This document shows positions 39,651 to 61,139 of a stretch of 64,000 nt of DNA, piece by piece. Position numbers and translations under genes: made by a program. Within the stretch, counting starts at the first letter, position 1. Each line of letters opens with the position of its first letter. The notes beneath the pieces are model-generated. The model had not been told where the DNA came from. It searched no databases and saw nothing but the letters and a program-made list of their open reading frames with translations. Origin of the DNA: Zobellia alginiliquefaciens (GTDB lineage Bacteria > Bacteroidota > Bacteroidia > Flavobacteriales > Flavobacteriaceae); contig NZ_CP119758.1 of assembly GCF_029323795.1 (NCBI RefSeq), positions 2,046,001-2,110,000 of the forward strand, written 5' to 3'.

Positions 39651-39651
39651 T

Positions 39652-45353: not shown

Positions 45354-46433
45354 TTAGTTTAGGGAAAGAGGTCTGGCCGGCCTATTTTTCGATGGATTTT
45401 TCAGGTCTAATACTTTTAGGAGTGTTGGAGCTATTTGGTTGCTATACAATTGCTCTGAAATTGAAATCTCTCCACCTTTAGAGACCCCTTTACCAAATAG
45501 GATGATCCAAACATGACCGGCACCTTTTATGTTTTCCCCATGGCTTTTCCAAGTTTCTAAGGGTTGGGTTCCGCGTCCGTGATCCGTGGTAATTATGAAA
45601 AGCGTTTTGTCTTTGTAAAAGGGGTCTTGTTGGGTGAAATCGTAGAGGTTTTTAATAAGGCCATCTGTGTTATGAGTAGATTTCAAATACGCTTCATAAT
45701 CTCCATCGTGAGCAAAATCATCAGTTTCCCCATAAGCGATGTATACCAACTCTGGATGATTTTTCCTCATATGCTCTACGGCGTAATAGTGGGTAAAGGC
45801 ATCCAATCGAACCGTACTCCAAGGACTAGGCACTTTAGGTTGCAGCTCGTTCAGGAATTTTTCACGTTCACTTAGGTCTTTGCCTTCTGCAATTTCAAAA
45901 CCTCCATTTACGGGTACGCCCGACCGCTCTTCGTTTACGATATAAGGAAAAACATCCCAACTGCCGAAGGCGGCTACTTTGTTCTGATAGCGTTCATCCC
46001 TGTTTGCTATTTCTAGCACGGTTGTGTTTGGGTTAGGTATTTTGTCATTGCTGCCAATGCGTGCGTCATCGGCCTTACCGGTCAAAATTTCATTATAGCC
46101 TGGGTAGGAAAACCACATTTTATTGGTTAGGTCTACCTTGCTGCCCAATTCTCGGTTACCGTGAATTGTTCCCATCTTGGAAACAGAATTCCATACAAAA
46201 GGCATCAAGGCTTCCCTTCTGGCTTTTGCCGTGGATTTCCAAAAGCTGCTTTTCAATGCTGTGGTATCATGGACGTATTTTTTGTTGGCGACTAAAAGGG
46301 AGTCAGCTCCTGAAAAAAGTTCTTGCCACCGCAATCCATCCAAGGTAATCAGTACAACCTTAGTGTCGTTCTCCTGCGCATTGGTTTTTATAAATAAGAG
46401 AAGTCCTAGAATACAGAATATCAATTTTTTCAT
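45354..46433 (-). CDS. Secreted alkaline-phosphatase-superfamily hydrolase
   Basis: A 359-residue protein with signal peptide (cleaved near KTNAQ). The superfamily metal sites show as ITLDGLRWQELF near residue 30, WFSYPGYNEILTG near 110 (Ser or Thr nucleophile region), GETDDFAHDGDY near 238 and ITTDHGRGT near 285. This is the phosphoglyceromutase/phosphodiesterase type rather than PhoA. It overlaps the upstream metallophosphoesterase gene by four bases and is the last gene of the operon. It probably removes phosphate or cleaves phospho- or phosphono-esters in the periplasm. Confidence 0.8.
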   Translation of the reverse strand: MKKLIFCILGLLLFIKTNAQENDTKVVLITLDGLRWQELFSGADSLLVANKKYVHDTTALKSSFWKSTAKARREALMPFVWNSVSKMGTIHGNRELGSKVDLTNKMWFSYPGYNEILTGKADDARIGSNDKIPNPNTTVLEIANRDERYQNKVAAFGSWDVFPYIVNEERSGVPVNGGFEIAEGKDLSEREKFLNELQPKVPSPWSTVRLDAFTHYYAVEHMRKNHPELVYIAYGETDDFAHDGDYEAYLKSTHNTDGLIKNLYDFTQQDPFYKDKTLFIITTDHGRGTQPLETWKSHGENIKGAGHVWIILFGKGVSKGGEISISEQLYSNQIAPTLLKVLDLKNPSKNRPARPLSLN

Positions 46434-48025
46434 GGGTTGTTGGTTTTAAAAGTTAGCGGGTTGGACCAATCACTCCAATTTAGGTGCTGGTCGCGGTAGC
46501 GAACGCGCCAATAATAGGTGGTGTTAGGTTTTAATCTTTTGGAAGGCTCGTCCGTTAAGTCGTCTCCTTCTTGTCTGTTTTCAAGATAGTACCAATTTTC
46601 CGATTGCTTCCAGCTATCGATAACTAAGTCCGAAAAATCGGAATTAGTAGAAATTTGCCAGTTAGAAGCGGCGTGGTAAGCATCGTTAAAAGAACTGTTG
46701 AAGTTTTCCGCTTTGAGCATTGTTCCGGTAAATGGGATGTTTTCTCCCTTTGGGGAAATGGCTTTTGGAACTTCGGGCTTGTGACTGTTGGCGTAGATGG
46801 TAATCTCATCTGTTTTTTCGTTTGAGCGAAATTTATTTTCATTACCTCGACTTATTCTTTTTAAAGTGAATTTAGGGTTGTCCTGGTTGGCATCTACTTC
46901 TACCATTACAAAACCATATTCATCTTGCGTAACCGTAAATTCATCATAATCACGACCTTCAAACTCACCCCAATTATCAATAGCACCTCCTGCAGAAGCC
47001 ACATTTACCCAAAGGTGTTTGTGGTCCTTGGACTGACCACGGGAATAGCCATGGGTGTGCCCAAAAAAGTGAAGACTGGGTTTTCCTGTTTTTGTGCTGA
47101 AATCTTCAAGGAGTTTCACTACTTTTCCCGAAGATGCCTCTTCTCCAGGTATCCATAATTCTGATTTATGGGGATGGTGCAATTGAGCAAAAACAAAGTC
47201 GATGTCTTCATTTTTTGCCGCTTCTGCCAAGACTTCTTCCAACCAAGTGTATTGTGCATCAATATCTCTATATCCGTTATTACTGTTTAGGCCAATGATA
47301 CGGGTATTACCGTAATCTTTGTACCACCAATGTTCCGCGTAAGCGGGCGTACCGTTTTCAGGAAGACTGAAATATTTGAAGTAGTAAGATGAGTTTTTTT
47401 CATGGTTTCCAAGCACCGGATAAACGGGAACCTCGGCGAACAGGTTTTGGGCCGGGTCAAAAAAATCATTTTTCCATTGTTTATATTTGGTGCCATTTTC
47501 TACTAGGTCTCCAGGAACCATTACCAAGGCTAAATTCTCAGGAAGCGCTTCACCGTATTCGGTTTTGAGGTAAGGAATGATACCTTCGTTTACAATCTCA
47601 GAAAATTTATCCGGATTATGGTGGTCTTTTTGCATATCGCTTATAGCGAGCATATTAAACGATTGATTGTCATTGCCAAAAGGAGGTGTCTTAAACTGAA
47701 AAATGTCCGAGACAACCATTCCGGTTCGTACGCGATAAAAATAAGTTGTAAACCGTTTTAGACCATCAATTTGGACTTCGTGAATGCGAGATTCAGAAAA
47801 GTTGATGTCATGCGCAGAACCCTCCGATTTTTTACCCAATTTTTGTGTCGTACCCCATTCTACAATACTTTCCTCTCCGCTGGAAGTCTGCCAAACTATT
47901 TTAATGGAGTTGGGCATGGCATCCTGTAAATACGGGTTTACGACAAGTTCTGGTTTCTCTTTTTGGGCGAAAGCCCAAGAACATAATAGAAGATTGAGAA
48001 CAAGTAATAGATGTTTGTTTTTCAT
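46430..48025 (-). CDS. Secreted purple-acid-phosphatase-like metallophosphoesterase
   Basis: A 531-residue protein: signal peptide (to about residue 20), fibronectin-III-like N-terminal domain (LVVNPYLQDAMPNSIKIVWQT) as in purple acid phosphatases, then a calcineurin-like core with MVPGDLVENG near residue 170, VLGNHEKNS near 208, FAQLHHPHKSE near 283 and FFGHTHGYSRG near 321. The C-terminal ~100 residues are another FN3-like domain (TTYYWRVRYRDQHLNW). It should hydrolyse phosphomonoesters outside the cytoplasm. It ends overlapping the next gene by four bases. Confidence 0.82.
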   Translation of the reverse strand: MKNKHLLLVLNLLLCSWAFAQKEKPELVVNPYLQDAMPNSIKIVWQTSSGEESIVEWGTTQKLGKKSEGSAHDINFSESRIHEVQIDGLKRFTTYFYRVRTGMVVSDIFQFKTPPFGNDNQSFNMLAISDMQKDHHNPDKFSEIVNEGIIPYLKTEYGEALPENLALVMVPGDLVENGTKYKQWKNDFFDPAQNLFAEVPVYPVLGNHEKNSSYYFKYFSLPENGTPAYAEHWWYKDYGNTRIIGLNSNNGYRDIDAQYTWLEEVLAEAAKNEDIDFVFAQLHHPHKSELWIPGEEASSGKVVKLLEDFSTKTGKPSLHFFGHTHGYSRGQSKDHKHLWVNVASAGGAIDNWGEFEGRDYDEFTVTQDEYGFVMVEVDANQDNPKFTLKRISRGNENKFRSNEKTDEITIYANSHKPEVPKAISPKGENIPFTGTMLKAENFNSSFNDAYHAASNWQISTNSDFSDLVIDSWKQSENWYYLENRQEGDDLTDEPSKRLKPNTTYYWRVRYRDQHLNWSDWSNPLTFKTNNP

Positions 48026-48028
48026 TTT

Positions 48029-49402
48029 TCAGTAAGATTGATGGTTTAAAGTAGAAAGTGCGTTATCTAGTATTGTGAGGGCATTTTTAAGCTCTTCAGA
48101 AGAAATTGTGAGTGCTGGAGCCAGTTGTAAAACATTCCCTGACGAAACTTTAAAACTGAGTCCGTTCTTAAGGCATTCGTACATGACTTTTTCGGCTTCG
48201 TTTATGGCTTTCTTTTTAGTTTTTTGGTCTGTCACCAGTTCAACACCCCACAAAAGTCCCAATCCACGAATATCACCAATGATAGAATGCTTTTGTTTTA
48301 GGCGATTCATTTCTTGCTGCATCATACCCTCCAGATTTTTAATCGTACCGGAGTGGAGTTCTTCTTCAATAATTTCTAGGGTAGTTAAGGCTGCAACAGC
48401 ACCAAGCGGACTCTTTTCATGGGTGTAATGACCCAATGAAATATCGCTGAATTTGTTGTAGGCATCCCGAGCGACAATCGCTGCCTGCGGAAAAATTCCA
48501 CCACCGAGCCCTTTCCCTAAACACAGAATATCAGGTTCAATATCATAATTTTCAAAAGCGAACATTTTTCCCGTTCGGCCCATCGCTATGGGAATTTCAT
48601 CTAAGATTAATAGTACCCCATATTGATCACAGAGGCGTCTGGCTTCTTTCCAAAAAGCTTTTGAGGGAATTTGAACATCTGTGTTTCGAACGGTTTCCGC
48701 TAAAAAAGCACCAATATCGCCTTCTTTGGCGAATACATATTCCAGATATTCCAGACATTTAGATTCATTATTTTCATAAATACCTCTGTACGTCACCGGC
48801 GGTGGAATGCGTTCTACACCCGGCATTAAAGGGCCCATGTGTTCTCTAAAAACCGATTCTCCGCCCACACTTATAGCGTCCAAGGAAGCCCCGTGAAAAG
48901 AATCCCAAAAGGAGACCACTTTAAACTTTCCGGTAACCGCACGGGCCAGTTTTAGAGCAATACCAATTGCGGCACTACCGTTGGGTGTCATTAGCGTACG
49001 GTTCAGGTCAGAAGGTAAAAGAGAGGCTAGTTTTTCTGCAAAATCGATAGCGTTTTCATTGGTGTATCTTCTGGTGGAAAAAGTCAGCGATTGCAATTGC
49101 TCGGTTAGGCGTTGTACCAATTTTGGATGCGAAAAGCCCAATTGGTGCACATTATTCCCATGAAAATCGAGATACTTTTTCCCGGATAGGTTTTCGATAT
49201 AAGGACCGTCACAGTTTTTTAGAACATCTAAACATGGTGACGATAAAGATTGATGAAAGAAATACCGAGCGTCTTTTTCCAGTAGCTCCTTTGTGGTTTC
49301 ATCAACTTCATTGAATAACCATTCTTGTCTTGCTGGCGTGTAGTTGATGTCGCCCTCGGTTCTTTTATTCTGTTTTATTTCCCGTTTTTCATTTTGACTC
49401 AT
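48029..49402 (-). CDS. pbfA: Class III PLP enzyme, PbfA-like (1-hydroxy-2-aminoethylphosphonate ammonia-lyase)
   Basis: A 457-residue fold-type I PLP enzyme. The PLP Lys297 is in LCLGKGLGGGIFP and the Asp in LLILDEIPIAMGRTG near residue 268. The segments GDINYTPARQEW, YLDFHGNNVHQLGFSHP, STRRYTNE and FWDSFHGASLDAISVGGE are, as I recall, typical of the PbfA group, which eliminates ammonia from (R)-1-hydroxy-2-aminoethylphosphonate to give phosphonoacetaldehyde. A plain class III aminotransferase is the alternative. ATG at 49402 is preferred to GTG at 49429. It lacks a signal peptide although its operon neighbours are secreted. Confidence 0.7.
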   Translation of the reverse strand: MSQNEKREIKQNKRTEGDINYTPARQEWLFNEVDETTKELLEKDARYFFHQSLSSPCLDVLKNCDGPYIENLSGKKYLDFHGNNVHQLGFSHPKLVQRLTEQLQSLTFSTRRYTNENAIDFAEKLASLLPSDLNRTLMTPNGSAAIGIALKLARAVTGKFKVVSFWDSFHGASLDAISVGGESVFREHMGPLMPGVERIPPPVTYRGIYENNESKCLEYLEYVFAKEGDIGAFLAETVRNTDVQIPSKAFWKEARRLCDQYGVLLILDEIPIAMGRTGKMFAFENYDIEPDILCLGKGLGGGIFPQAAIVARDAYNKFSDISLGHYTHEKSPLGAVAALTTLEIIEEELHSGTIKNLEGMMQQEMNRLKQKHSIIGDIRGLGLLWGVELVTDQKTKKKAINEAEKVMYECLKNGLSFKVSSGNVLQLAPALTISSEELKNALTILDNALSTLNHQSY

Positions 49403-50663
49403 AAGGACCGTGTTCTGATAGTACTTCACGCTTTTCGGAAGTATCGTTCAAGATAAATATTTTATAGGATGCGCCTCCTTTTTCAACCCGTAGAACAATA
49501 TGTCCGTTATGGCTTTTATACTGGTCGAGTCTGCCGCCAATCACATCTTTGTTGGCTTGTAAAAGAACAGTACTGAAAATGTCTCGTTCACCCGGATAAA
49601 GTTCTTTTGAAGTTATACGTCTTAAGACCTCTTCGCCCGGGTGGTCGCTAGACCAGTTTTGCTGAATCCAGACGCGTGGACGTAGGGTGCGCACGTAAAA
49701 TGTGTTTTGTGAATCGCGGTTGCCATGATGATTTAAAGTTGCGACATCTACCGCACCAACAATAGGCGCTATGTTGGATTCTACCGAGTGAATATTGATG
49801 CCTCCAAAAGCATTAATCCCGCTGATATCACCTCCGGTGAAATAATCAAAATTACCATAGCTAATTTTAAGGCAAGTGCTCAATGGATTCTCTCCAGGAT
49901 ATTCACCTTCTTTAAAAATGGAAAATGTACGGTTCTTTTCTCCGGTCCAAATCTCACCGTTCACTGCTATATTTCGAATATTGAAATCAGGAAAATCTTT
50001 TTGTTTTGTTTTAAGGGCTATTTGATTCAGCTGACCAGCTTCAAAGACTTCATATTGTAGCCCATTAGTTTTTGCTTGGAAATTGATAAAGTTCCAATAG
50101 TTTTTAAGCGTAGCTATCGTTCCATAAGCATCGTTCTTATCTATTTTTGATTGAATTTCTACGTTTTTTAGGTCAACAGGATAAGAATCGCCGCGATCAA
50201 GTATGGTCTTTATCGGTAGGTGGTGGCCTACTTCTGTAATTCCTGTTAAGTAGTAATTTCCGTTTTCAGCCTTTTTTCTATTCACATCCATTTCACCAAA
50301 ATGGTCGTCATGATAATGGGTGAGAAGCGCATAATCTAACTGCGGAGTTTTGTTTTTGGGTGTAAATTGATCAATGTAATCTACAATCCATTCAGGCGCC
50401 GATTTAGAATTGTTGGGCATCAATTTGGCATTTCTAGCGGAAAGGGTTCGTTCATGCGTTTCGGACATGTCACCAGCGTCTACTAAAAGCGTTGTTCCGT
50501 CCGGAAGTATAAAATAGGCAGCATCGCCTCTTCCTGTGTTGATGTGGTGTATGTCTAGCATACCTTCTTGCCAAGGGGGCAGTTCGGAAAAAAATTGCTG
50601 GGCACAAACTGTAGTGCCCAGCAAAAAAGAGAGTAAAACGAAACTAAAATTGAAAAAATTCAT
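49389..50663 (-). CDS. Secreted metallo-beta-lactamase-fold hydrolase
   Basis: A 424-residue protein with signal peptide (cleaved near VCAQQ). The metal motif HxHxDH is seen as LTHYHDDHFGEMD near residue 115, with IHHINTGRGDAAYFILPDGT at the start of the fold, like ComEC/Rec2-type MBL proteins. The activity is unknown; a phosphodiesterase activity would suit the locus (PhnP of the C-P lyase pathway is also of this fold, but sequence likeness to PhnP is not claimed). It starts immediately after the upstream phosphodiesterase gene and overlaps the PbfA-like gene by 14 bases. Confidence 0.75.
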   Translation of the reverse strand: MNFFNFSFVLLSFLLGTTVCAQQFFSELPPWQEGMLDIHHINTGRGDAAYFILPDGTTLLVDAGDMSETHERTLSARNAKLMPNNSKSAPEWIVDYIDQFTPKNKTPQLDYALLTHYHDDHFGEMDVNRKKAENGNYYLTGITEVGHHLPIKTILDRGDSYPVDLKNVEIQSKIDKNDAYGTIATLKNYWNFINFQAKTNGLQYEVFEAGQLNQIALKTKQKDFPDFNIRNIAVNGEIWTGEKNRTFSIFKEGEYPGENPLSTCLKISYGNFDYFTGGDISGINAFGGINIHSVESNIAPIVGAVDVATLNHHGNRDSQNTFYVRTLRPRVWIQQNWSSDHPGEEVLRRITSKELYPGERDIFSTVLLQANKDVIGGRLDQYKSHNGHIVLRVEKGGASYKIFILNDTSEKREVLSEHGPYESK

Positions 50664-52310
50664 TTAATCGGTCATCAATAACGGTTGAGATAATATCTGT
50701 TTGGCAGCATCGCCTTCTTCTACAAAAACGTCTAACCAGCCATCGCCACCACCATTGAACCATAGTACTTTTATAAGGTGTATGCCAGGTTGTAAAGTGA
50801 TGGTGCCATCTTTGGTCTTTACACCATGATCACCATCATTGTCTACTACGAGTTCGTCATCAATAAAGAGTTTGCTACCGTCATCCGAACGAAGATAGAA
50901 CCTGTAATTTTTTTCTTTTTCTATCTCTATTCTAGCAGTGAACCTTACCGCTGTGTTGCTCTTGATCTTGTCATTTATTTCATCTGAGGTAATTTCAGAA
51001 GTAGTGCCTTTCAAATCTGGTTTTTTAGTGCTTAAGGCTGGAATAAAAGTGAGATTATCCATATAAAAAATCTCGTAGTTTACTGGTTTTTTCGCTTTTT
51101 TAGGTTGTATCCTGAAATAACCTTCGGCAACAGGGCTACTAATTTTATTATCTGTAAATAAGGCACTTTTAACTACGGTGTTATTCGTTAAGCGGAAAGG
51201 TTTATCGTAAATGGCCGAAGCTTTGGTAGGCAATGAACCATCCAAGGTATACCTAATGGTTCCCTCTTCGTTCATATTTTTGATTTCAACGGAAGTAGAT
51301 TCTGTGAAAAGTCCGCCAGCTTTTTTATACCCATCAGATTCAGGGAAAATAATGGGTTCTTTTAGCTGTTCTAGAACGGTGTATTGGTCCTCTATTTCAT
51401 AACCTTCAAAAGCAGATGCAACAGGTTTGCCGATCCAAGCATGTGGCGTCTTAATTCCCAATGCAAAGGCTACCGTAGCTGCGTTATCATACTGGTAGAC
51501 AGGGTGGGTAATTTTATGGTTTTTCTTGACTCCCTTTCCCCAAACGATAAAGGGAATTTCAATTTCTTGAAGAGACTCGCCGCCATGCCCTTTGCCCAAA
51601 CCACCATGATCGGCACTTACGACAACCAGGGTTTTGTCCTCAATACCGGCTGTTTTAATTGCATCCATAACTTCTTTAAGAAGTTTATCCGATTTTTCAA
51701 CGGATTCGTAATAATGTGGGGTGCCATGGCCATATTCATGACCAGCATGGTCTACGTGGTCAAAATGAATAAAAGTGAATTTTGCCTTTTTTGCTCGAAT
51801 GTATTCGCTGGCAATTTGGGCCGTTTCCTCCTCGGTTTCAGGGCTCACGTCATAATCAACTGCACTTTTTTCGAACAATCTTCCAAAACCGCCCCAATGA
51901 TAAATGGCGCCAATCTCTGCATCGGGAAATTTACTGTCAACTAGCTTGAATATAGTCGGAAATAAAAAGTCTTCACTCTGGGCAACCGCCGGCAAAACAA
52001 AGTTGTCACGTTGCCATGAATTTGATGTAATGCCATGCTGTTCGGTACCTGCACCCATGATCATAGAGGCCCAGTTACTACTGGAACTTGTGGGCAGTAC
52101 AGCCCTAGCGTGCATGGTTGAAGCACCTTCAGCGATAATCTTATCGAAGGTTGGGGTTTCGGCATTTTGAAGTCCGTCTGGGCTAAGTCCGTCAAAACCT
52201 ATGACTACTACGTGTTCGATGCCAAGGTTGGCTACATCTTGAGCATGAACACTTTTTAACCCTATTCCCCAGAATAGTATAGCTGGGATAAGTAATTTAA
52301 GTAGTTTCAT
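50664..52310 (-). CDS. Secreted type I phosphodiesterase with CHB_HEX_C-like and PA14 domains
   Basis: A 548-residue protein: signal peptide (to about residue 23), then an alkaline-phosphatase-superfamily phosphodiesterase domain (VVIGFDGLSPDGLQ, LPTSSSSNWASMIMG with the nucleophile region near residue 75, HFDHVDHAGHEYGHG, VVSADHGGLGKGHGG). A chitobiase-C-like linker domain follows (TIRYTLDGSLPTKAS, about 330-400), then a PA14 domain (RFYLRSDDGSKLFIDDELVV, GGGDGWLDVFV). PA14 and CHB_HEX modules often bind carbohydrate, so the natural target may be a phospho- or phosphono-substituted glycan. Confidence 0.8.
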   Translation of the reverse strand: MKLLKLLIPAILFWGIGLKSVHAQDVANLGIEHVVVIGFDGLSPDGLQNAETPTFDKIIAEGASTMHARAVLPTSSSSNWASMIMGAGTEQHGITSNSWQRDNFVLPAVAQSEDFLFPTIFKLVDSKFPDAEIGAIYHWGGFGRLFEKSAVDYDVSPETEEETAQIASEYIRAKKAKFTFIHFDHVDHAGHEYGHGTPHYYESVEKSDKLLKEVMDAIKTAGIEDKTLVVVSADHGGLGKGHGGESLQEIEIPFIVWGKGVKKNHKITHPVYQYDNAATVAFALGIKTPHAWIGKPVASAFEGYEIEDQYTVLEQLKEPIIFPESDGYKKAGGLFTESTSVEIKNMNEEGTIRYTLDGSLPTKASAIYDKPFRLTNNTVVKSALFTDNKISSPVAEGYFRIQPKKAKKPVNYEIFYMDNLTFIPALSTKKPDLKGTTSEITSDEINDKIKSNTAVRFTARIEIEKEKNYRFYLRSDDGSKLFIDDELVVDNDGDHGVKTKDGTITLQPGIHLIKVLWFNGGGDGWLDVFVEEGDAAKQILSQPLLMTD

Positions 52311-52397: not shown

Positions 52398-53843
52398 TTA
52401 ATACCTAGTTCCAGTTTCCCACCAACCCTTAGCGTTGATGTTGTCACCACCAATTGCTTCTACTGCAGCTTTATAGTTTGTTTCGTTCAATGTTTGCTCA
52501 GAAGAAGGGTATAGGAATCTTACTGGGTAAAGACCCTGGTTCTCGTTGTCTGGACCAGCTTCAAGCGCAGGTAAACCTGTTCTTCTGTAATTGAACCATC
52601 CTTGGTAATCGACATTCCAAAGAGCAAGTGTTTTTTGGGTCATCAACAGTTCGATGCTTCCATCGTATGCCACGGAAGGCTGAGCCAAATAGGCGTCAAT
52701 AACCGTATCGTCGGTTACACCCCAATACTTCATACTTTGGCGAATACCTTCATTGTAAAAAGTTTCGGCATCACCGGGAATAAATCCTCTTTCTGCCGCT
52801 TCGGCCAATATAAAGTTTACCTCAGAGCTTTTAATAATATAAGCCTCAGCCTCAGTTCTGGAAAAGTAGAACAATTCAACATCTAAACGGCTAGGGCTAT
52901 TAGCATCGTCATACGCTCTAGCGTTATCTTGATTTAAGCCAATAGGTATGCCCACATATTCTCCATCACTGTTACGATCAAACCAAATATCCAATCTAGG
53001 GTCGTTAAAACGGGTAAGGTATTCCAGTCCGGTGGTACATAAACTTTTCTCGTCAAAACCACCGATTCGACCTGTACTTTCGGGCCAAGAATCAGTATTT
53101 GAAGTTCCGCTGAAAGTTAGGACGGCATTGTCATCGTTGGTCATGATATAATTACCGGCACTAACAATAGCTTGCATTTCGGCGGAAACATCTCTTTGTT
53201 TTGAGATTCGCAACAAGTAGCGTAAGCGAAGTGAATTTGCGAGTTTTCTCCATTTTGAGGCATCGCCATCAAAAATAACGTCTCCTGTTGAGCCTGTAAT
53301 GGCTTCACCCAAGGCCAATGCAGCATCGGCATCCACTAAATCTTGAAGAACACCGTTGTAAACCGTTTCTTGATCATCGTATTTTGGAGTAAAAACCGCA
53401 TCTGTTTTTCCGGTAATGGCTTCCGTGAAAGGAACGTTTGCATACAAATCGGTTAAGTTGGCGTAACAAAGTGCTCTTAAGGTTAAGGCTATACCTTCAT
53501 ACGTACTATTCTTGGTTTCCTCAGCTCTAGAGATTTCTAAAATGTCCGTTACTTCGGGCAAAATCTGATAGAAAAAATTCCATAGACCTTGATCTCCCCA
53601 TTCAAATTGGCCAAAACCAGGGAAGTTGTTCTTCGCCATTAACTGTGTAAGGGTATTTCCGTCTGAATACCCTTCGGAAGTTAAAGTGCGGACAATATCG
53701 GAAGTTGCCGTAGCGGTAAGTAAATCGGCACTTACCATTTCTGGAGCATTGGGGTTTGAGTTTGTTTCTTCAAAATCTGCTGTACAGCCCGTTAAGCTTA
53801 AGCCCGTAAGAAGAATTATGGTGAATATTTTTGATGTTTTCAT
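52398..53843 (-). CDS. SusD/RagB-family outer-membrane lipoprotein
   Basis: A 481-residue SusD-like protein with a lipoprotein signal (lipobox SLTGC, Cys at about residue 20). The helical body with TPR-like repeats matches the SusD_like group (for example LLLTATA-like start, ALCYANLTDLYANVPFTEAI near residue 135, and C-terminal WNVDYQGWFNYRRTGLPALE). It forms the lid of the SusC transporter encoded just upstream and captures the substrate at the cell surface. It is 88 bases before the phosphodiesterase gene. Confidence 0.92.
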   Translation of the reverse strand: MKTSKIFTIILLTGLSLTGCTADFEETNSNPNAPEMVSADLLTATATSDIVRTLTSEGYSDGNTLTQLMAKNNFPGFGQFEWGDQGLWNFFYQILPEVTDILEISRAEETKNSTYEGIALTLRALCYANLTDLYANVPFTEAITGKTDAVFTPKYDDQETVYNGVLQDLVDADAALALGEAITGSTGDVIFDGDASKWRKLANSLRLRYLLRISKQRDVSAEMQAIVSAGNYIMTNDDNAVLTFSGTSNTDSWPESTGRIGGFDEKSLCTTGLEYLTRFNDPRLDIWFDRNSDGEYVGIPIGLNQDNARAYDDANSPSRLDVELFYFSRTEAEAYIIKSSEVNFILAEAAERGFIPGDAETFYNEGIRQSMKYWGVTDDTVIDAYLAQPSVAYDGSIELLMTQKTLALWNVDYQGWFNYRRTGLPALEAGPDNENQGLYPVRFLYPSSEQTLNETNYKAAVEAIGGDNINAKGWWETGTRY

Positions 53844-53873: not shown

Positions 53874-56800
53874 TTAGAACTCTATGTTTATATTGATACC
53901 ATAGCTTCTTGTGCTTGGTAATGCCATATCTTCTACACCTGGAACCACCGTTCCGCCCGAGAAAGAAATGGTTTCCGGGTCTACATGAGGATTCTCTGTC
54001 CACAAGGCTAGGTTACGGCCAACAAGAGAAATACTAGCCGAAGCAATTGGTGTTTGGGCGAACATCTTTTTAGGGAAGTTGTAACCAAATTTCACTTCTC
54101 TCAGCTTAACATAGCTGGCATCGTACATGGTAGTTTCTTCGTTGCTCCGGTTATATACCGTAGAATAGTACCCTGATGCAGGAACATTGATGGTGTTTTC
54201 TTCATATACAGGATTTTCTTCGGTTCCGGTATTGATAACACCTTCTGCCACAATTCCTGTTTCACGACCTTCAGTAGTAAAATCCAAAAGACCTGTGGTG
54301 CCACCAATGGATACTGTTCTAGAGTGGTAAACACCACCTTGCCGCCAATCAAAAAGAACGCCTAGATTTAGGTTTTTGTAACGGAAACTGTTTTGAAGCC
54401 CAACCATGAAGTCAGGGTTGTAATTGCCCAAGTTTCTAAGTTCACTATCTCTTGAAGGTAGACCAGTATCTTGGTTAATAATCCATTGTCCGTAATATGG
54501 ACTGCTGGTATCGGTTACTTCTACGAAACCTGTGCCGTATAAGTCTCCCATTCTTTCACCTACTTCGGCACCTACGATAAGATAATTTTCTTTTATCTGA
54601 TAAAAGTCGAGTCCCTCTGCAAGCTCTAAGATTTCACCTCTATTCGTGGTGAAGTTGATGTTGGTGTTCCAAGTGAAATTCTCAGATTTTACGGGTGTTG
54701 CGTTTAAAGTGATTTCAAGACCTTCATTTCTAACCTTACCAGCGTTGATCACTGTTTGATTGTAACCCGAAGTATTAGAAACAGGTAGTGAAATTATCTG
54801 GTTTTTTGTTTCCGACCTATATAATGCCACATCTAAGCCCAAGCGATTGCTGAAGAATCTTAAATCGGTCCCAACTTCAAAAGAGTTGGTTCTTTCTGGC
54901 TTTAAATCCGGTAATTTCAGTTCTGAAGGAGAATTTACTCGTGAAAAGCCATTAAAGGTTGTTCCAAATCCATAAGTGGATAATAAGTTGTAAGGATCGG
55001 TGTCGTTACCTACACTTGCCCAACCAGCTCTTAATTTTGCAAAAGTTATAGTTTCAGGAAAGGTGAACATATCCGATAGGATAAGGCTCAACCCGGCTGA
55101 GGGATAAAAATAACTACTGTTCTCTAGAGGAAGTGTAGAAGACCAGTCGTTTCTGCCGGTTACATCTAAAAATAGATAGTCTTTAAACCCAAAATTAGCA
55201 AAGGCGTACAAACTGTTAATTTCCTTTTTGTCATCATAATCGCTAGAAGTTAAGGGTTCCGCAGTGTTTCCGAAGTTATAGATACCGGGTATGGATAGTG
55301 AGTTGGCACTTATTCTCTGATATCTATTCTTTACTATACGACTGTTACCACCAACTGAAAGTCCTAGGTCAACATCTTCATTAAGTGAAGTGTTGTAGCC
55401 AAGTAGAAAGTCTGTGTTCTGCTCAAAGGCATAGATGTTATCTTCTCTATACTGGCCTTTTGGAAACCGCTGTGTAGAATAAGCTCTTTTGCGCATGTTC
55501 AGTTCATTGGCATAATCAAAACCTGTTCTGAACATAAAATCAAGACCCTTTGCCAATTTAATATCTGCGCGCATATTGGTAATCAGACGGTCTTTATCAA
55601 GACTATTTGTGTTTTCGTATACGTTAAAGAAAGGGTTGTCATGGTAGTTGTAATTGTAATTGTACTGTTGTACGCCTTCCAGACCCGGTTGCCAGTAGTC
55701 ACGAAGCGAGTTCATATCTACATGCTGTCCGAACCAAATCCATAAATACATGATATTTTCTGTACCGTAAGAGTTTACAGGGCGGTTGCCAGAATTACTG
55801 TTTATATAATTCATAGAACCCGAAACCTTAAGCCAATCTGTAAGTTGGTATGAACCATTGAGGGCATACGAACGTCTGTTGTAGTCGGTATTGGGTACTA
55901 TGCCCTCGCTTTGCAAATCAGTAAAAGAGAGCCTGAAATTACCTTTATCGTTTCCTCCTGTTAGAGCGATATTGTTACTAATGGTGTGACCTGTTTCAAA
56001 AAAACTTTTGATGTTACCCGGTCTTGATAGAAAAGGAGTAGCGATAATTTCATCGGCAAAAGTACCGTCTGCATTTCTTGGGCGAACATGAACGTCTCCA
56101 GCACGCAAACCGCTAGTTGTAGGGCTGTCGTGTTGTGCGATTAATTGACCGTTTAAAGCAGGACCCCAACTTTCATCAACATGATCGTTTACGCCTCCCG
56201 TTATGGAGCGGTTTTGACCACCATCGGCAAAAGCAAACTGACCGTTTGAGCCTTGACCGTATTCGTATTGATATTCAGGAAATGTTAGAATAGACTCAAA
56301 AGTAGTGTTGTTCGTATATGAAACGCCTATACCTTTATTGTTTTTCCCTGATTTTGTAGTAATCAATATAACTCCGTTCGCTCCTCTTGAGCCGTAAAGG
56401 GCTGTTGCGCTCGGGCCTTTCAAAACGTTCATGGTCTCAACGTCGTCAGGGTTAATGTCTTGCGCGCCGTTGCCGTAATCTACTTCCATATTACCTTCGC
56501 TAGAACGGCTGCTTACACTATTGTTGATAGGAATTCCATCAACTACAAAAAGTGGTGAATTGGCATTTGGACTTGGGTTTAACGAACTTTCACCACGGAT
56601 TATAATTTGAGAGGATGACCCTACTCCCGAATTGCCACCGGTTATTTGAACCCCCGCGAGTTTACCTGCCAAAGAGTTGACCACATTAGTTTCCTTTGCT
56701 TCTGAAATTTCGTCTCCGGAGACCTCTTGTACCGCGTAGGCCAATTTTTTAGCTTCTCTTTTTATGCCCAAAGCAGTCACCACAACTTCATTTAATTGTT

Positions 56801-57092
56801 CTGAATTGGGTTGTAAAACGATTGTTGCCGATGTTTTTCCAGAAGTATCTAATTCAGAGGGGATATAACCTAGGTAGGATACTACTAAAGTTTCATTTCC
56901 TTGAGGTAGTTCTATACTGAAATTACCGTCAAAATCCGTGGCTACACCAGTTGCACTTCCTTTAATAACTAAGGATGCTCCCGGTAATGGTACTTGGTTC
57001 TCGTCTAGCACCGTTCCCGTAAAAGTAGTCTGTGCACGGGCGGCCAAACTGACCATTAATGCGAATAAGGTTAAAAGAAGTGTTCTTTTCAT
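53874..57092 (-). CDS. SusC/RagA-family TonB-linked outer-membrane transporter
   Basis: A 1072-residue protein: signal peptide, CarboxypepD_reg-like domain (TFTGTVLDENQVPLPGASLV, near residue 22), TonB plug domain (ITGGNSGVGSSSQIIIRGE and VVDGIPINN near 150-190), then a large beta-barrel ending in an aromatic C-terminal strand (INIEF). Together with the SusD-like protein it imports a substrate over the outer membrane. In this operon the passengers are phosphatase- and phosphonate-related enzymes rather than glycoside hydrolases, so the substrate is probably a phospho- or phosphono-compound. Confidence 0.93.
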   Translation of the reverse strand: MKRTLLLTLFALMVSLAARAQTTFTGTVLDENQVPLPGASLVIKGSATGVATDFDGNFSIELPQGNETLVVSYLGYIPSELDTSGKTSATIVLQPNSEQLNEVVVTALGIKREAKKLAYAVQEVSGDEISEAKETNVVNSLAGKLAGVQITGGNSGVGSSSQIIIRGESSLNPSPNANSPLFVVDGIPINNSVSSRSSEGNMEVDYGNGAQDINPDDVETMNVLKGPSATALYGSRGANGVILITTKSGKNNKGIGVSYTNNTTFESILTFPEYQYEYGQGSNGQFAFADGGQNRSITGGVNDHVDESWGPALNGQLIAQHDSPTTSGLRAGDVHVRPRNADGTFADEIIATPFLSRPGNIKSFFETGHTISNNIALTGGNDKGNFRLSFTDLQSEGIVPNTDYNRRSYALNGSYQLTDWLKVSGSMNYINSNSGNRPVNSYGTENIMYLWIWFGQHVDMNSLRDYWQPGLEGVQQYNYNYNYHDNPFFNVYENTNSLDKDRLITNMRADIKLAKGLDFMFRTGFDYANELNMRKRAYSTQRFPKGQYREDNIYAFEQNTDFLLGYNTSLNEDVDLGLSVGGNSRIVKNRYQRISANSLSIPGIYNFGNTAEPLTSSDYDDKKEINSLYAFANFGFKDYLFLDVTGRNDWSSTLPLENSSYFYPSAGLSLILSDMFTFPETITFAKLRAGWASVGNDTDPYNLLSTYGFGTTFNGFSRVNSPSELKLPDLKPERTNSFEVGTDLRFFSNRLGLDVALYRSETKNQIISLPVSNTSGYNQTVINAGKVRNEGLEITLNATPVKSENFTWNTNINFTTNRGEILELAEGLDFYQIKENYLIVGAEVGERMGDLYGTGFVEVTDTSSPYYGQWIINQDTGLPSRDSELRNLGNYNPDFMVGLQNSFRYKNLNLGVLFDWRQGGVYHSRTVSIGGTTGLLDFTTEGRETGIVAEGVINTGTEENPVYEENTINVPASGYYSTVYNRSNEETTMYDASYVKLREVKFGYNFPKKMFAQTPIASASISLVGRNLALWTENPHVDPETISFSGGTVVPGVEDMALPSTRSYGININIEF

Positions 57093-57099
57093 TTTTTTC

Positions 57100-57110
57100 G
57101 TATTTGTAAA
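57100..57110 (-). promoter_or_regulatory. TTTACAAATA element (downstream copy at susC)
   Basis: Reads TTTACAAATAC on the minus strand. It is in the susC leader just before the start codon and is paired with an inverted copy at 57229-57239. Confidence 0.5.
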
Positions 57111-57131
57111 CTTTGGTTAATTATTAGGCAA

Positions 57132-57139
57132 CAAATATC
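57132..57139 (-). promoter_or_regulatory. Possible -7 box of susC
   Basis: Reads GATATTTG on the minus strand, one mismatch to TAnnTTTG, lying between the two TTTACAAATA elements. Confidence 0.35.
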
Positions 57140-57228
57140 TAATGAATAAGTTAAGCGAAATGTCATTAAATATTAAGTTATTGCAAGGTTTAAAAGAGTT
57201 TTATTATGAAAAGGTTATCTTAATGTTA

Positions 57229-57239
57229 TTTACAAATAC
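57229..57239 (+). promoter_or_regulatory. TTTACAAATA element (upstream copy at susC)
   Basis: TTTACAAATAC on the plus strand, the exact reverse complement of the element at 57100-57110, 118 bases away. It lies in the divergent region shared with the XRE-cupin regulator gene. Confidence 0.5.
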
Positions 57240-57340: not shown

Positions 57341-57348
57341 TATGTTTG
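57341..57348 (+). promoter_or_regulatory. Promoter -7 box of the XRE-cupin regulator
   Basis: TATGTTTG, an exact TAnnTTTG, 17 bases before the regulator's start codon. Confidence 0.55.
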
Positions 57349-57365
57349 TACTTTAAGTTTTAACT

Positions 57366-57932
57366 ATGGATGATTACCTGATAGGTATTGGAAAACGGAT
57401 AAAAGAAATCCGAAAGGAAAGCAACAAAACGATAAGTGATATTGCGCGTGGTGCAGAGGTAACCGGTGGCTTGATTTCAAGGATTGAAAACGGAAGAACC
57501 ATACCATCTTTGCCCGTATTATTGAAAATAATAAGTTCATTGGAAATTGAAGTGATCGAGTTTTTCAATGGTATGCCACAGGTAAACGGGGCTAGCTATA
57601 TAGTTTCGAGAAAAGAGGACAATTCTATAATTGAAAAAGAGGACACCGCAGTTGGTTTCAATTATACTTACATTTTTGGAAAACAGCTTTCTTCCTTAGG
57701 TTTTGAGACGGTTTTATTAGAGGTTCAACCCAGCTCGGAACGTGATAAAGTCACTACAGATGCTTACGAGTTTAAGTATATGCTTACCGGTGAATGTTAT
57801 TATATAATTGGAGAGGAAGAAGTGCTTTTGAAAGAAGGGGACTCTATTTTCTTTGATGGTCGTATTCCGCATGTTCCGGTAAATAGAAGTGATGCGCCAA
57901 CTAAGATGTTGGTCATTTATTTCTTTATTTAA
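57366..57932 (+). CDS. XRE-family transcriptional regulator with cupin sensor domain
   Basis: A 188-residue regulator. Residues about 8-65 are an XRE helix-turn-helix (IGKRIKEIRKESNKTISDIARGAEVTGGLISRIENG). The C-terminal half is a small beta-barrel cupin (LTGECYYIIGEEEVLLKEGDSIFFDG) that usually binds a small ligand. It is divergent from susC and sits between the two operons of the locus, so it is the natural candidate for their control through the TTTACAAATA elements. It is followed by a bidirectional terminator. Confidence 0.87.
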   Translation: MDDYLIGIGKRIKEIRKESNKTISDIARGAEVTGGLISRIENGRTIPSLPVLLKIISSLEIEVIEFFNGMPQVNGASYIVSRKEDNSIIEKEDTAVGFNYTYIFGKQLSSLGFETVLLEVQPSSERDKVTTDAYEFKYMLTGECYYIIGEEEVLLKEGDSIFFDGRIPHVPVNRSDAPTKMLVIYFFI

Positions 57933-57953
57933 GTTTTACCACAGTGAAAGCAA

Positions 57954-57985
57954 AACGATCCGCTATCATAGGATAGCGGATCGTT
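57954..57985. terminator. Terminator between the XRE-cupin gene and the phosphonatase-like gene
   Basis: A perfect 14-bp stem, AACGATCCGCTATC with GATAGCGGATCGTT, around ATAG. It lies between two convergent genes and can serve both. Confidence 0.75.
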
Positions 57986-58013
57986 AGTTTAATTTTACTA
58001 TGCCAGTTATAGT

Positions 58014-58691
58014 TTACCCTTCAATATAATCGGTAAGTTCAACAAGAGAATTTAGTACGTAAGTAGGGTTGGCGGATTTTAGCTGTTCTGCCGTGTGGGC
58101 TCCAGTAGTAACCCCAACTGTAACACCACAATTTGCGTTTTTTCCTTCTTCAATATCTATGATTGAATCCCCGGCCTTCAATACTTTTTCTGCATCGGTC
58201 ACTCCCAAATTTTCCATAGCCTTAGAAATCATTTCGGGATGGGGCCTTCCTTCCGTTACATCATCGGCCGTAACCAGTGTATCATATTGGTTACCTAGGC
58301 TCCAGTTCATTTTTTGAAGTAGAAGTTCCGCTATGGCCCTGTTGTAACCTGTGTTTAAGGCAATCTTAATATGTTTAGATTTTAGGTCCGCCAAAGTTTT
58401 TTCAACGCCTTCAAAAGAAGAAACTGCTAAATTGCTATAGGCATCGTCTAACATCGTTTTAAAATCTTCAAAAATGGGTTCGGAGGGTTCTGAGGATATT
58501 TTGTCGCTTGCTATCAGAATATCTTTTATAGCCTGATGCTTTTCTTTTCCTGCACCATGTTCCAGTACAAAATCTAATGTAACATCATACCCTCTTTTAT
58601 TAATGGCTTTTTGTACCGTTTTATAAACTACGTTGTCTTCATTTACGACCGTTCCGGCCATGTCAAATACTGCTAATACTATGTTATGCAT
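58014..58691 (-). CDS. Phosphonoacetaldehyde-hydrolase-like HAD enzyme (TIGR03351-type)
   Basis: A 225-residue HAD-superfamily protein. The nucleophile motif FDMAGT (Asp10, Ala12, Thr14) matches the PhnX DxAGT. Near residue 46 the cap segment GAGKEKHQAI has Lys49 and His52 in the same spacing as PhnX's Schiff-base lysine region (G-L-L-K-x-x-H). TADDVTEGRPHPEMI and KAGDSIIDIEEGKNA also follow the PhnX layout. It should cleave the C-P bond of phosphonoacetaldehyde to acetaldehyde and phosphate. ATG 58691 replaces an upstream longer frame; it overlaps the FAD gene by eight bases. Confidence 0.78.
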   Translation of the reverse strand: MHNIVLAVFDMAGTVVNEDNVVYKTVQKAINKRGYDVTLDFVLEHGAGKEKHQAIKDILIASDKISSEPSEPIFEDFKTMLDDAYSNLAVSSFEGVEKTLADLKSKHIKIALNTGYNRAIAELLLQKMNWSLGNQYDTLVTADDVTEGRPHPEMISKAMENLGVTDAEKVLKAGDSIIDIEEGKNANCGVTVGVTTGAHTAEQLKSANPTYVLNSLVELTDYIEG

Positions 58692-59853
58692 TTTGTAAAT
58701 TGAATATTGAATTGATATTTTCTTTTGAAAAGCCTGCACTGCCGGTCATTCCTTTGCCACCTATACCGGTTACAATGTGAATGTTCCGATCTATGGTATG
58801 CTGATATAGGTCCGCATTTTTACATTGGGAATAAAGACCGTACCATCTGTTTTGTAATTGGTAGGTAGGCAAATCAAATATTTTCTTTGCTTCGTTTAAA
58901 ATGAAGTTGTCAATGTCCATATTCAGATCCATACCTAAATCATCTATACTTGCAGCAGGGGCATATTCGTGGGAATCACCAATAATAACCGAACCATCCA
59001 TAGCTTGTTTGAACAGAATGTGTACACCCCATTTTTTTTCTAGGGATTCACTTTTTTCATTTGCTTTAACCGAAGCATAGGATGGGCACTCGGAGAAGGC
59101 TTCATAGCGTCTTATGGATAGGCCAGTTAGAACGGAGCTTGGCAGTTTGTAATTAGGCTGAACCTTGGTTTGCATCATCTGTAATTTTGATACGATGAGG
59201 TCGCTTTCTGAAAACAAATTCGGATACAGCATTTTAAAATCACTTCCGTTACAGATAATGACCTTAGAGGCGGATAGTGCCATATTGTCCGTGGTGTGTA
59301 CTTGTACCCAATTGGTAAGGGAATTGCATTCTACCACGGTCTTGTTCATATAAATATCCAGGCCTATTTCTTTTAGATAGCTTTGTAGTTTGCCGATCAT
59401 TAGACGCGGCTCTACCATAACTTCCTCAGGAAAGAAAAGCCCCATTTTTACATAATCTTCACGGAGACCAGGATACTTTTTAAGACATTCCTCTTTGGTC
59501 ATTAACTTAGACTTGTAGGAATTTTTGAGGTTGATGGCGTTTAATTCTACCAAGAGTTGAACTTCCTCTTCATTGGAAGCAATATAGATACTCCCTTCTT
59601 GCCGTACGGAAATATCAAATTTAGATTGTATATCCTTATATATTCTTAAACTTTCCCGTCCGTATATTTGCCATTTAGAGTCCATGCCCGAGGGTACCAC
59701 TTGTCCAAAATTGCGTACGGTAGCCCCTTGGGGTTTTCCATCCTTTTCGAGCAAAGCAACTTTTAGACCGTTTTTCATTGCGTGATAAGCATGAAAAGTA
59801 CCTAAAATGCCTCCACCAACTACGACAAGGTCATATTTATTCTCCATGGTCAT
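58684..59853 (-). CDS. TIGR03364-type FAD oxidoreductase (proposed aminophosphonate oxidase)
   Basis: A 389-residue DAO-superfamily flavoprotein. The FAD-binding DLVVVGGGILGTFHAYHAMK is at the N-terminus, followed by the group signature ATVRNFGQVVPSG near residue 44. The TIGR03364 group is known from genome context to travel with phosphonatase-like HAD enzymes and phosphonate transporters, and proposed substrates are aminoethylphosphonate derivatives (hydroxylated or N-methylated), oxidised to phosphonoacetaldehyde. Here it overlaps the transporter gene by four bases (ATGA) and the HAD gene by eight, a tight operon. Confidence 0.78.
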   Translation of the reverse strand: MTMENKYDLVVVGGGILGTFHAYHAMKNGLKVALLEKDGKPQGATVRNFGQVVPSGMDSKWQIYGRESLRIYKDIQSKFDISVRQEGSIYIASNEEEVQLLVELNAINLKNSYKSKLMTKEECLKKYPGLREDYVKMGLFFPEEVMVEPRLMIGKLQSYLKEIGLDIYMNKTVVECNSLTNWVQVHTTDNMALSASKVIICNGSDFKMLYPNLFSESDLIVSKLQMMQTKVQPNYKLPSSVLTGLSIRRYEAFSECPSYASVKANEKSESLEKKWGVHILFKQAMDGSVIIGDSHEYAPAASIDDLGMDLNMDIDNFILNEAKKIFDLPTYQLQNRWYGLYSQCKNADLYQHTIDRNIHIVTGIGGKGMTGSAGFSKENINSIFNLQNA

Positions 59854-61139
59854 ATAATATGCAGTTCATTGTTTAACGTTAGTTGTTCCATCTTATATTT
59901 TTTCTTGAAATAGATTAATGAGCAAGTAGTTGCCGCGAAGCCCACAAAGGCAATAGCATAAGTTCCATAGCTAAAGAATTGTAGCCATGAGACGGAGCGA
60001 TGTCCGAAATTTTTATATAGTAGGATGGCCATGCTTCCCAAGTACCCAAAGGCATCTGCAATATAGATGAGGTAGCCGGCATTACCCTCTATTTTGAAAG
60101 TGGCTATCATCCTATCAAAAAATATACAGTTAAAAGGTACGTAGCAGATGTACAGTCCCAGACCCACTAAAACCATCCATAGTACCGGTCCCATTACTTG
60201 TGTTTGAAATAGAAAGGTGCTACCGCCAATAAGGATCGCCCCAAAAATTAACAAGTAATGGTAGGTTATAAAGGCCCGGTAATTATCTTTAACAAAGGCA
60301 AAAAGACCGATGGATATTAGAACGATTATGGCTACAGGTAGCTCAGACAAAGTATAAATGGAAGCATTGTCTTCAAAACCAACGGCATCCCAAATTTCAC
60401 GAGAAAAATTATCCCTAAAGTCGCGTATCGCAGTAAGGCAAATGTAGAAAAAGACAAGAATTACAATAGGGAAGAAGAAGTTGGAGAGTACCTTTTTACG
60501 GTCTTCGCGACTCATAGGCTTCCGTTCTTTTCTAAGTGCCTTGTCTTCTTTTGTAGGTTTTGGGATTTTATCCAATAGAAAAGCAAAACTTAAAAATGGG
60601 ATCAAGAAAACTGCGCCTGTCATGGCGGGCATCCACATTTCTGAAACTCCGGTCAATTGTATTAACAATAAGCCTGAGGATTTTACGGCACCACTAGAAA
60701 CTATAAAACTTGAGCATAAGGTAACGCCAAGTATTTCCGTAAATTTCCTTCCTTCTAAATAGGAGAAAACGATACCCCAGATCATGCCCAGGGAGAGACC
60801 GTTAAAAAACATAAATATGATGTTGTACGGAGGGGAGACCAAACCAAAAAGTATTAAGCTCAATTCCGCAATGGCAATCATTAGTATTAGGTAACGTAAA
60901 CGGTTAGTGGCTTTTAGTTCAGATATGAGCTTAATGCCTATGAACTTAGAGAGCATATACCCAAGCACTTGGGTAATAATTAGAATAATTTTGAAATCTA
61001 TACCCATAAACGCTAGCTGTTCATAGGTTGCAACCGTAAATGGCTTTCGAAAAGCGTACATACAGAAATACGTGCCAAATGACGCAAATGCTCCATAGGA
61101 AAGAAATCTAATGTCTTTATAATTTATTTTGAAAGTCAT
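59850..61139 (-). CDS. DUF5690 / MFS-like inner-membrane transporter
   Basis: A 429-residue membrane protein with about 12 hydrophobic segments. The start YKDIRFLSYGAFASFGTYFCMYAFRKPF and the segment QVLGYMLSKFIGIKLISE resemble the DUF5690 family, related to organophosphate:phosphate-type MFS carriers. It is first in the operon with the FAD oxidase and the phosphonatase-like enzyme, so the likely cargo is an aminophosphonate. This is inference; no transport data are implied by the sequence. Confidence 0.75.
   Translation of the reverse strand: MTFKINYKDIRFLSYGAFASFGTYFCMYAFRKPFTVATYEQLAFMGIDFKIILIITQVLGYMLSKFIGIKLISELKATNRLRYLILMIAIAELSLILFGLVSPPYNIIFMFFNGLSLGMIWGIVFSYLEGRKFTEILGVTLCSSFIVSSGAVKSSGLLLIQLTGVSEMWMPAMTGAVFLIPFLSFAFLLDKIPKPTKEDKALRKERKPMSREDRKKVLSNFFFPIVILVFFYICLTAIRDFRDNFSREIWDAVGFEDNASIYTLSELPVAIIVLISIGLFAFVKDNYRAFITYHYLLIFGAILIGGSTFLFQTQVMGPVLWMVLVGLGLYICYVPFNCIFFDRMIATFKIEGNAGYLIYIADAFGYLGSMAILLYKNFGHRSVSWLQFFSYGTYAIAFVGFAATTCSLIYFKKKYKMEQLTLNNELHII

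Follow-up and report, generated by a model that had tools for sequence, protein, structure and literature searches.

A SusC/SusD locus of Zobellia alginiliquefaciens with a predicted route from aminophosphonate-bearing molecules to phosphate

SusCD-type transporters are best known for sugars. PusCD clusters that carry phosphonate-degrading enzymes are already in print (Lidbury et al., PMC8115612, cited by a 2022 paper of the same group, PMC8812569), and the text of the former describes Flavobacterium PusCD loci with phosphodiesterases and phosphatases as induced by low phosphate; the terms phnX and phosphonatase do not occur in that text, figures aside. Among the enzymes, PbfA is described as supplying phosphonoacetaldehyde to PhnX or PhnYA (text of PMC8154272) and PbfF as a racemase of 2-amino-1-hydroxyethylphosphonate (HAEP; text of PMC12366243). 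The family TIGR03364 includes the characterised PbfD1, PbfD2 together with PhnX and without PhnW is a described route, and PbfD homologues are reported in the Fibrobacterota-Chlorobiota-Bacteroidota (FCB) group too, according to the accessible text of PMC10590968. AepP, a major facilitator superfamily (MFS) permease of the organophosphate antiporter (OPA) type, imports 2-aminoethylphosphonate (AEP) and accompanies PhnWYA/PhnWX clusters; Kriegella aquimaris is named as one of its bearers (text of PMC8316502). Here we describe an 11-gene SusCD locus of Zobellia alginiliquefaciens, located in a 64-kb window (the whole stretch of DNA analysed, positions 2,046,001 to 2,110,000 of contig NZ_CP119758.1) within a single-contig genome of 5.07 Mb. 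The host, probably a seaweed-associated marine bacterium, belongs to the Bacteroidota, which are part of the FCB group.

We consider it likely that the locus acts as one regulon taking extracellular aminophosphonate-bearing molecules to phosphate. This reading is based on the identities of the genes, their intact catalytic residues, their conserved linkage, a promoter motif shared by both operons, and a Kriegella locus in which a PhnWYA-AepP block replaces the cytosolic block. From these we infer substrates and reactions, the direction of transport and the binding of the motif by the XRE-cupin protein, as follows. The SusCD pair would bind and import a phosphonate ester whose size or charge keeps it from passing porins. 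An NPP-type phosphodiesterase (PDE), a metallo-beta-lactamase (MBL)-fold hydrolase and two phosphatase-like enzymes would then release the aminophosphonate in the periplasm, and the OPA-like DUF5690 protein would carry it into the cytosol. There, PbfA would act as an ammonia-lyase converting (R)-HAEP to phosphonoacetaldehyde, the PbfD-type oxidase of family TIGR03364 would produce the same compound from N-methyl-AEP and AEP, and the PhnX-like enzyme would cleave it, yielding phosphate and acetaldehyde. Both promoters would be controlled by the XRE-cupin protein, which would sense a pathway compound.

The locus resembles Pus systems in that its SusCD genes are linked to phosphoesterases, and differs from those of PMC8115612 in that its predicted route is complete, reaching from the outer membrane as far as C-P cleavage, and in that it has a regulator gene and a motif of its own. 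With the PbfD2-PhnX route it shares a TIGR03364-type oxidase and a phosphonatase without PhnW, whereas the accessible text of PMC10590968 holds no SusCD link ('bacteroid' has 0 occurrences) and the window hydrolase is a TIGR03351 protein below the cut-off of TIGR01422. DUF5690 stands in place of AepP, the predicted likeness being that of OPA-type MFS proteins; TonB has 0 occurrences in the text of PMC8316502, where the string SusC appears only inside 'susceptible'. Unlike the PbfF system, the window locus has no racemase gene among its genes. SusCD with phosphonate enzymes is as such already known; this locus, a role for DUF5690, the motif and the exchange of SusCD were not found described in the literature searched, which took in few papers of subscription journals, few bioRxiv preprints and no figures.

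An earlier, sequence-only reading had placed the 11 genes here and taken them to be devoted to phosphonates or organophosphates. All 11 were recovered with the same coordinates and families by an open reading frame (ORF) list and profile searches (Table 1). PbfA, the TIGR03364 protein and the PhnX-like protein exceed the curated cut-offs of their models, PbfA that of equivalog NF049939 by a margin of 189 bits. Residue K306 of PbfA, which we take from class-III enzymes to be the lysine bearing pyridoxal 5'-phosphate (PLP), is kept in 96/96 aligned rows, among which the window gene stands twice; PbfA of Zobellia russellii is 88% identical to that of the window. The TIGR03364 gene is the sole match above cut-off in the genome. 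By N-terminus reading and a hydrophobicity count, these three proteins are without an export signal, the PDE, MBL-fold, purple-acid-phosphatase-like (PAP) and alkaline-phosphatase-superfamily (AP-type) proteins bear one, and SusD has a lipobox. The GTG starts of the PhnX-like (58739) and PbfA (49429) genes are probably over-extended; as we read the sequence, a Met codon further inside each ORF, close to 58691 and 49402 respectively, is the likelier start.

The PhnX-like protein scores 112.1 bits on the PhnX equivalog TIGR01422, below its cut-off of 220, and is therefore not filed as PhnX proper. Its closest solved relatives are phosphonoacetaldehyde hydrolases (phmmer, E 1.6e-17), and D26, A28, K67, T130, R165, D191 and D195 are invariant in 60/60 sequences, including Bacillus cereus PhnX. 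Ordinary phosphatases of the haloacid dehalogenase superfamily have a DxD motif, that is, Asp where the DxAGT motif of the window protein has Ala. K67 aligns with what we take to be the Schiff-base lysine, Lys53; phmmer pairs that lysine two residues off, with K65, which is kept in 41/60 sequences as compared with 60/60 for K67. As aligned, the protein bears the signature of the PhnX mechanism, a DxA nucleophile motif with an aligned Schiff-base lysine. Curated models and active-site residues, used in place of a clade test against unrelated families, give no sign that PbfA or the PhnX-like protein belongs to an unrelated clade. Two relatives, one in Dyadobacter (L080, 212.3) and one in L168 (189.9), score just below the TIGR03351 cut-off of 218.9 (L and G numbers are our labels for loci and genomes). 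The absence of C-P lyase, PhnW and PhnY genes, noted earlier for the window, extends to the genome for PhnJ (no match) and for PhnW (none above cut-off, best 48.2 bits against 360.8), PhnY not having been searched genome-wide. TIGR01422 gave two matches in the genome, both under cut-off, the better being the window PhnX-like protein (106.8 bits). Going by its family assignments, the cytosolic set fits the route described in the text of PMC10590968, a PbfD-type oxidase with a phosphonatase and without PhnW. The phosphonate reading of the locus is thus supported, although the enzymes favour aminophosphonates (HAEP, AEP, N-methyl-AEP) over organophosphates at large.

We then compared PbfA loci of other genomes, taking the best 80 of at least 586 candidates encoding a relative, a choice that leans to close kin. 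Matches were accepted at E 1e-8 or better in flanks of up to 10 kb or to the contig end; flank ends lower the counts, that of DUF5690 most of all, and none of our counts is a tally of independent events, the rows being related species. The PDE was found in 64 of the 80 loci, the PhnX-like and TIGR03364 genes in 57 each, XRE in 53, SusC in 50, SusD in 48, PAP in 42, AP-type in 39, DUF5690 in 38 and MBL in 29. SusC, SusD and PDE occur together in 47/80, and 40 of those 47 also have the PhnX-like gene. The window gene order recurs across many Flavobacteriaceae genera, which makes it more than chance, and the neighbourhood search that the sequence-only reading had proposed, for susC with TIGR03351 or TIGR03364 genes, found the association conserved in this family. 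Both operons are merged into a single run in Leeuwenhoekiella (L044), Flavobacterium (L023, L028) and Dyadobacter (L080). In Kriegella aquimaris (L024), SusC, SusD and a LamG protein are followed by a stretch in which some bases are masked, PDE and PbfA, and then by PhnA (474.1 bits, cut-off 407.55), PhnY (642.3, cut-off 635.65), PhnW and the gene of an OPA-type MFS permease resembling AepP; this PhnW passes TIGR03301 (406.8, cut-off 360.8) and lies below the narrower TIGR02326 (352.4 against 400.8). Because PhnA, PhnY, PhnW and the MFS gene stand at this position, the DUF5690, TIGR03364 and PhnX-like genes of the window occupy the place of proven AEP-route genes.

The two operons of the window share a motif, TTTACAAATA. 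The 64 kb hold four copies of it, two in the promoter region of each operon and none elsewhere; the expected count is 0.70 and 0/100 shuffles reach four. An inverted pair such as that upstream of DUF5690 (25-50 bases apart) exists at a single place in the whole genome, and a longer form of the motif has 11 genome matches, four of them at the locus, as against six for the reversed control. The motif was defined on the window and then tested elsewhere, copies of the window (window, L122) being excluded from the counts. It is exact in 33/33 XRE-SusC regions of other genomes. Of all other regions upstream of DUF5690, 21/58 have the exact motif and 35/58 have it when one mismatch is allowed; in a subset of 25 regions these figures are 16/25 and 24/25, and they become 16/23 and 23/23 without L139, which has no motif even with one mismatch, and L144, which has one site with one mismatch and none exact. 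Control regions, located for the most part within genes of these same loci and unmatched in base composition, gave 2/379 exact and 38/379 with one mismatch. An XRE orthologue of at least 65% identity is encoded in 41/80 loci, where these promoters account for 75/82 exact sites and a single locus is without a site; the 12 loci with a distant XRE gene have no motif in 256 kb. Of the 27 loci without XRE in view, six have sites, 12 in total; four of the 12 closely precede SusC in L025 and L034, whose sequences end early, so that XRE may lie outside. We predict the motif to be an operator bound by the XRE-cupin protein, and the regulator gene together with the shared motif suggests control by substrate. 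Between the two exact sites near the susC start (57101-57238) lies a third conserved TATTTGT stretch, perhaps a promoter element, perhaps a third half-site.

Among the hydrolases expected in the periplasm, residues that we take to be catalytic are well kept. In 68 aligned PDE sequences, D40 is found in 64, H188 in 67, and S76, D184, H191, D234, H235 and H242 in all 68; D130 of the PAP-like protein is kept in 45 of 46 and D173, N207, H208, H283, H323 and H325 in 46/46; and D32, S109, D238, H242, D284, H285 and H298 of the AP-type protein are kept in 41/41. Neither of the two latter proteins has a sequence match in the PDB. The MBL fold proposed earlier falls short of the Lactamase_B cut-off (Table 1), but the HxHxDH motif is invariant in 27 relatives. 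The best PDB sequence match of this protein is the pneumococcal phosphorylcholine esterase Pce/CbpE (E 7.4e-7; by profile, E 1.3e-7), the THxHxDH motifs and the NHH region aligning in just two short stretches. Fold support for a Pce-like protein was not obtained: in a Foldseek search with the model (predicted local distance difference test, pLDDT, 72.3) ComEC came first and Pce was not among the 50 matches listed. Pce removes a zwitterionic phospho headgroup from glycan. An analogous role for the MBL protein in the removal of AEP is tempting, and we keep it as a lead.

Several findings weigh against the one-regulon reading. TIGR03351 is a hypothetical equivalog and is not named in the literature searched; the MBL protein is assigned to Pce by sequence and to ComEC by structure; 23/58 other DUF5690 upstream regions are without the motif even when one mismatch is allowed; and no glycoside hydrolase was noticed in the conserved block (no carbohydrate-active enzyme scan was run), so that a glycan backbone would be left over or cut elsewhere. 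SusCD is present in just 2/16 Dyadobacter loci, the others having PbfA and DUF5690, mostly with PDE, without SusCD; and PbfA stands without other locus genes in nine Chitinophagaceae- or Sphingobacteriales-type loci (L058-L061, L064-L067, L086). In an even sample of 395 Bacteroidota genomes, PbfA was above cut-off in 15, the window genome included, and 15 PbfA loci, some ending at contig ends, were taken from the 14 others. SusCD occurs in two of these, both from Flavobacteriaceae (G182, G202), and no SusCD pair was found in the remaining 13. Among them, L191-L195 (G126 twice, G099, G190, G292) are without PDE or phn genes beside PbfA; in L191, PbfA is closely preceded by a solitary TonB receptor gene, whose product is 28% identical to the window SusC, with no SusD match. 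PDE is near PbfA in six of the 13 (G352, G258, G215, G223, G368, and G014, there at a distance of some 6 kb or more); PhnW accompanies it in five of these six, and PhnW-DUF5690-PbfA is found in two more (G336, G119). The SusCD link is therefore mainly a trait of Flavobacteriaceae and the PDE-PbfA link is wider; because of this wider link, we see in the PDE the likeliest phosphonate esterase.

The strongest competing explanation is a general phosphate-scavenging Pus locus, in which SusCD would import phosphodiesters, for example nucleic acid or the headgroups of lipids, the periplasmic enzymes would set phosphate free, the phosphonate enzymes would be secondary and control would be of the Pho type. 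It draws on the four secreted hydrolases, three of them from phosphoesterase families, and on the low-phosphate induction of the Flavobacterium PusCD loci cited above. However, in the 80 loci, chosen by PbfA, the phosphonate enzymes are as widely kept as the esterases, the PDE shares the PbfA neighbourhood in the six loci without SusCD just mentioned, and the XRE-cupin gene and shared motif suggest control by substrate. We regard this explanation as improbable.

DUF5690 would provide the inner-membrane step of the proposed regulon. The AF2 model (pLDDT 89.2, predicted template modelling score 0.87) matched human G6PT/SLC37A4 at Foldseek ranks 1-7 (best E 6.5e-8, TM 0.56-0.68), with GlpT (1pw4) at rank 21; sialin, GLUT4 and other MFS proteins follow G6PT with E-values at most about 25-fold higher. 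On this model, assignment to the MFS fold is secure and that to the OPA subfamily less certain. By sequence, phmmer found no PDB match, and a profile match to SLC37A4 is weak (E 0.2), with an RK motif aligned whose R31 is invariant in 26 sequences. DUF5690 is not confined to loci of the window type: it was above cut-off in 42/395 sampled genomes, comprising 12/15 with PbfA and 30/380 others (Fisher p 1.6e-10, not corrected for kinship). We examined 27 DUF5690 loci, drawn from the 30 best-scoring of 47 matches above cut-off with L121, L122 and L139 left out. A phosphonate gene (TIGR03364-like, PhnX-like, PbfA or PhnW, by best match) lies within 1.5 kb in 20 of the 27; the others are L161, L164, L169, L182, L184, L185 and L186. 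L161 was not counted as phosphonate-linked, its FAD oxidoreductase scoring 51.3 against 285.1 on TIGR03364. Since its predicted fold is OPA-antiporter-like and a phosphonate gene stands beside it in these 20 loci, DUF5690 is probably an inner-membrane carrier for aminophosphonate. A second DUF5690 gene of Kriegella adjoins a TIGR03366 phosphonate-associated dehydrogenase (336.6 bits, cut-off 328.1).

Other DUF5690 neighbourhoods were observed. In Kriegella (L144:2-1165), DUF5690 is accompanied by an NPP-type phosphodiesterase-like gene and the TIGR03366 dehydrogenase, apparently a second phosphonate locus. A PHP-type gene directly precedes DUF5690 in L170 (HisJ family) and L180 (similar N-terminus). 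The FAD oxidoreductase of L161, beside DUF5690, is a 38% relative of an extra DAO-family FAD oxidoreductase of Allomuricauda nanhaiensis (L043:7491-8729), which lies between PDE and MBL and has no NCBIfam match at 1e-40.

Two adjacent but separate systems might instead be present, SusCD and PbfA serving HAEP esters, and DUF5690, PbfD and the PhnX-like enzyme serving small free aminophosphonates. The separate transcription units of the window would fit, as would G099 and G292, where DUF5690, TIGR03364-like and PhnX-like genes (L168, L174) lie away from a lone PbfA (L193, L195). Against this, both promoters share the motif, relatives have single-run arrangements, and the product of PbfA needs a phosphonatase, for which the genome's best match is the PhnX-like protein. 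We give such a division very little credence.

A typing of SusC into three types by identity to the window was rejected, type II being mixed (SusD of L029 and L016 are only 42% identical), and SusC was therefore re-clustered into seven lineages, 32-56% identical to one another, with eight of SusD that follow them. L056, L074 and L079, whose SusC match is not next to SusD, were dropped. On a quick PbfA tree of 48 rows, with some long branches, the SusC lineages need 12 changes against a minimum of six; two lineages alternate, at least five changes being forced in each case by well-supported branches. Between the sisters L037 and L035 (the latter a metagenome-assembled genome), identity is 94% for PbfA and PAP, 87% for XRE and 80% for PDE, as compared with 51% for SusC and 35% for SusD. 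On these comparisons, SusC and SusD were repeatedly swapped as a pair, with the enzymes remaining in place. Such exchange could be due to differing cargo backbones, to pressure from phages on SusC or to chance. A paralogue as donor was rejected: for one SusC lineage, that of the window, in seven genomes (G000, G395, G396, G405, G407, G412, G419), the SusD closest to that of Pseudozobellia was only 39-42% identical, and no donor was found. We lean, if narrowly, towards a broader picture, a phosphonate-dedicated relative of polysaccharide utilization loci whose SusCD would import aminophosphonate-decorated polymers or lipids, whose secreted hydrolases would strip them, in which DUF5690 would be an aminophosphonate permease family with no earlier assignment, and where SusCD would have been swapped among at least seven lineages with the enzymes fixed. 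Least credible of all is an ordinary glycan utilization locus with phosphonate genes as hitchhikers: SusCD and the PA14/CHB_HEX_C PDE do look like parts of one and a GH1-glycosyltransferase pair adjoins the locus, but 11 loci inspected gene by gene (no carbohydrate-active enzyme scan) have no recurrent extra gene within the block, the extras being two in L024, a LamG protein and an ORF on the minus strand, and one in L043, the FAD oxidoreductase, and the phosphoesterase next door is found in only 4/80 loci, all of Zobellia or Pseudozobellia.

Table 1. Features of the locus, in window coordinates, with the match or measure on which each assignment is based.
Feature	Position	Strand	Evidence
DUF5690 (PF18943), predicted inner-membrane aminophosphonate carrier with OPA-like MFS fold	59850..61139	-	571 bits
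TIGR03364 FAD oxidoreductase, PbfD-type	58684..59853	-	403 bits, cut-off 285.1
PhnX-like TIGR03351 phosphonatase (predicted)	58014..58739	-	229 bits, cut-off 218.9
XRE-cupin regulator (predicted)	57366..57932	+	HTH_3 + Cupin_2
Operator-like motif TTTACAAATA, site 1, adjoining susC start	57101..57110	-	mean column conservation 0.929
Operator-like motif, site 2, between susC and XRE	57229..57238	+	mean column conservation 0.997; intergenic mean 0.647
Operator-like motif, site 3, upstream of DUF5690	61146..61155	+	motif search
Operator-like motif, site 4, forming an inverted pair with site 3	61192..61201	-	motif search
SusC-type TonB-dependent outer-membrane transporter	53874..57092	-	Pfam families
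SusD-like_2 surface lipoprotein	52398..53843	-	Pfam families
Secreted NPP-type phosphodiesterase (PDE): Phosphodiest + CHB_HEX_C_1 + PA14	50664..52310	-	Pfam families
Secreted MBL-fold hydrolase, candidate phosphonate-ester esterase	49389..50663	-	Pfam Lactamase_B 21.2 bits, below cut-off 22.7
PbfA, class-III PLP enzyme, NF049939	48029..49429	-	713.7 bits, cut-off 525
Secreted purple-acid-phosphatase-like (PAP) metallophosphoesterase: PAP N domain + Metallophos	46430..48025	-	Pfam families
Secreted alkaline-phosphatase-superfamily (AP-type) hydrolase	45354..46433	-	Pfam families

Just downstream of the AP-type gene ends a run of GH1, glycosyltransferase and calcineurin-like phosphoesterase genes (41679-44952). 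The phosphoesterase has relatives of 82-95% identity beside the locus in Zobellia and Pseudozobellia only (4/80 loci), and one of 74% adjoins DUF5690 in L162. Farther on, at 37260-41411, the glucuronate isomerase gene uxaC is followed by DctP, DctQ and DctM genes of a tripartite ATP-independent periplasmic (TRAP) transporter; by their families, these probably serve uronate uptake.

Polysaccharides and lipids are believed to carry much of the phosphonate in the sea. The phosphonate uptake systems in the accessible texts of the papers cited here take small free phosphonates. The present analysis proposes a function for the DUF5690 family, and the locus supplies a candidate operator and a candidate regulator that can be tested. 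If our reading is true, a SusCD-fed aminophosphonate pathway would give the Bacteroidota, prominent degraders of polymers, a direct route into polymer- and lipid-bound phosphonate.

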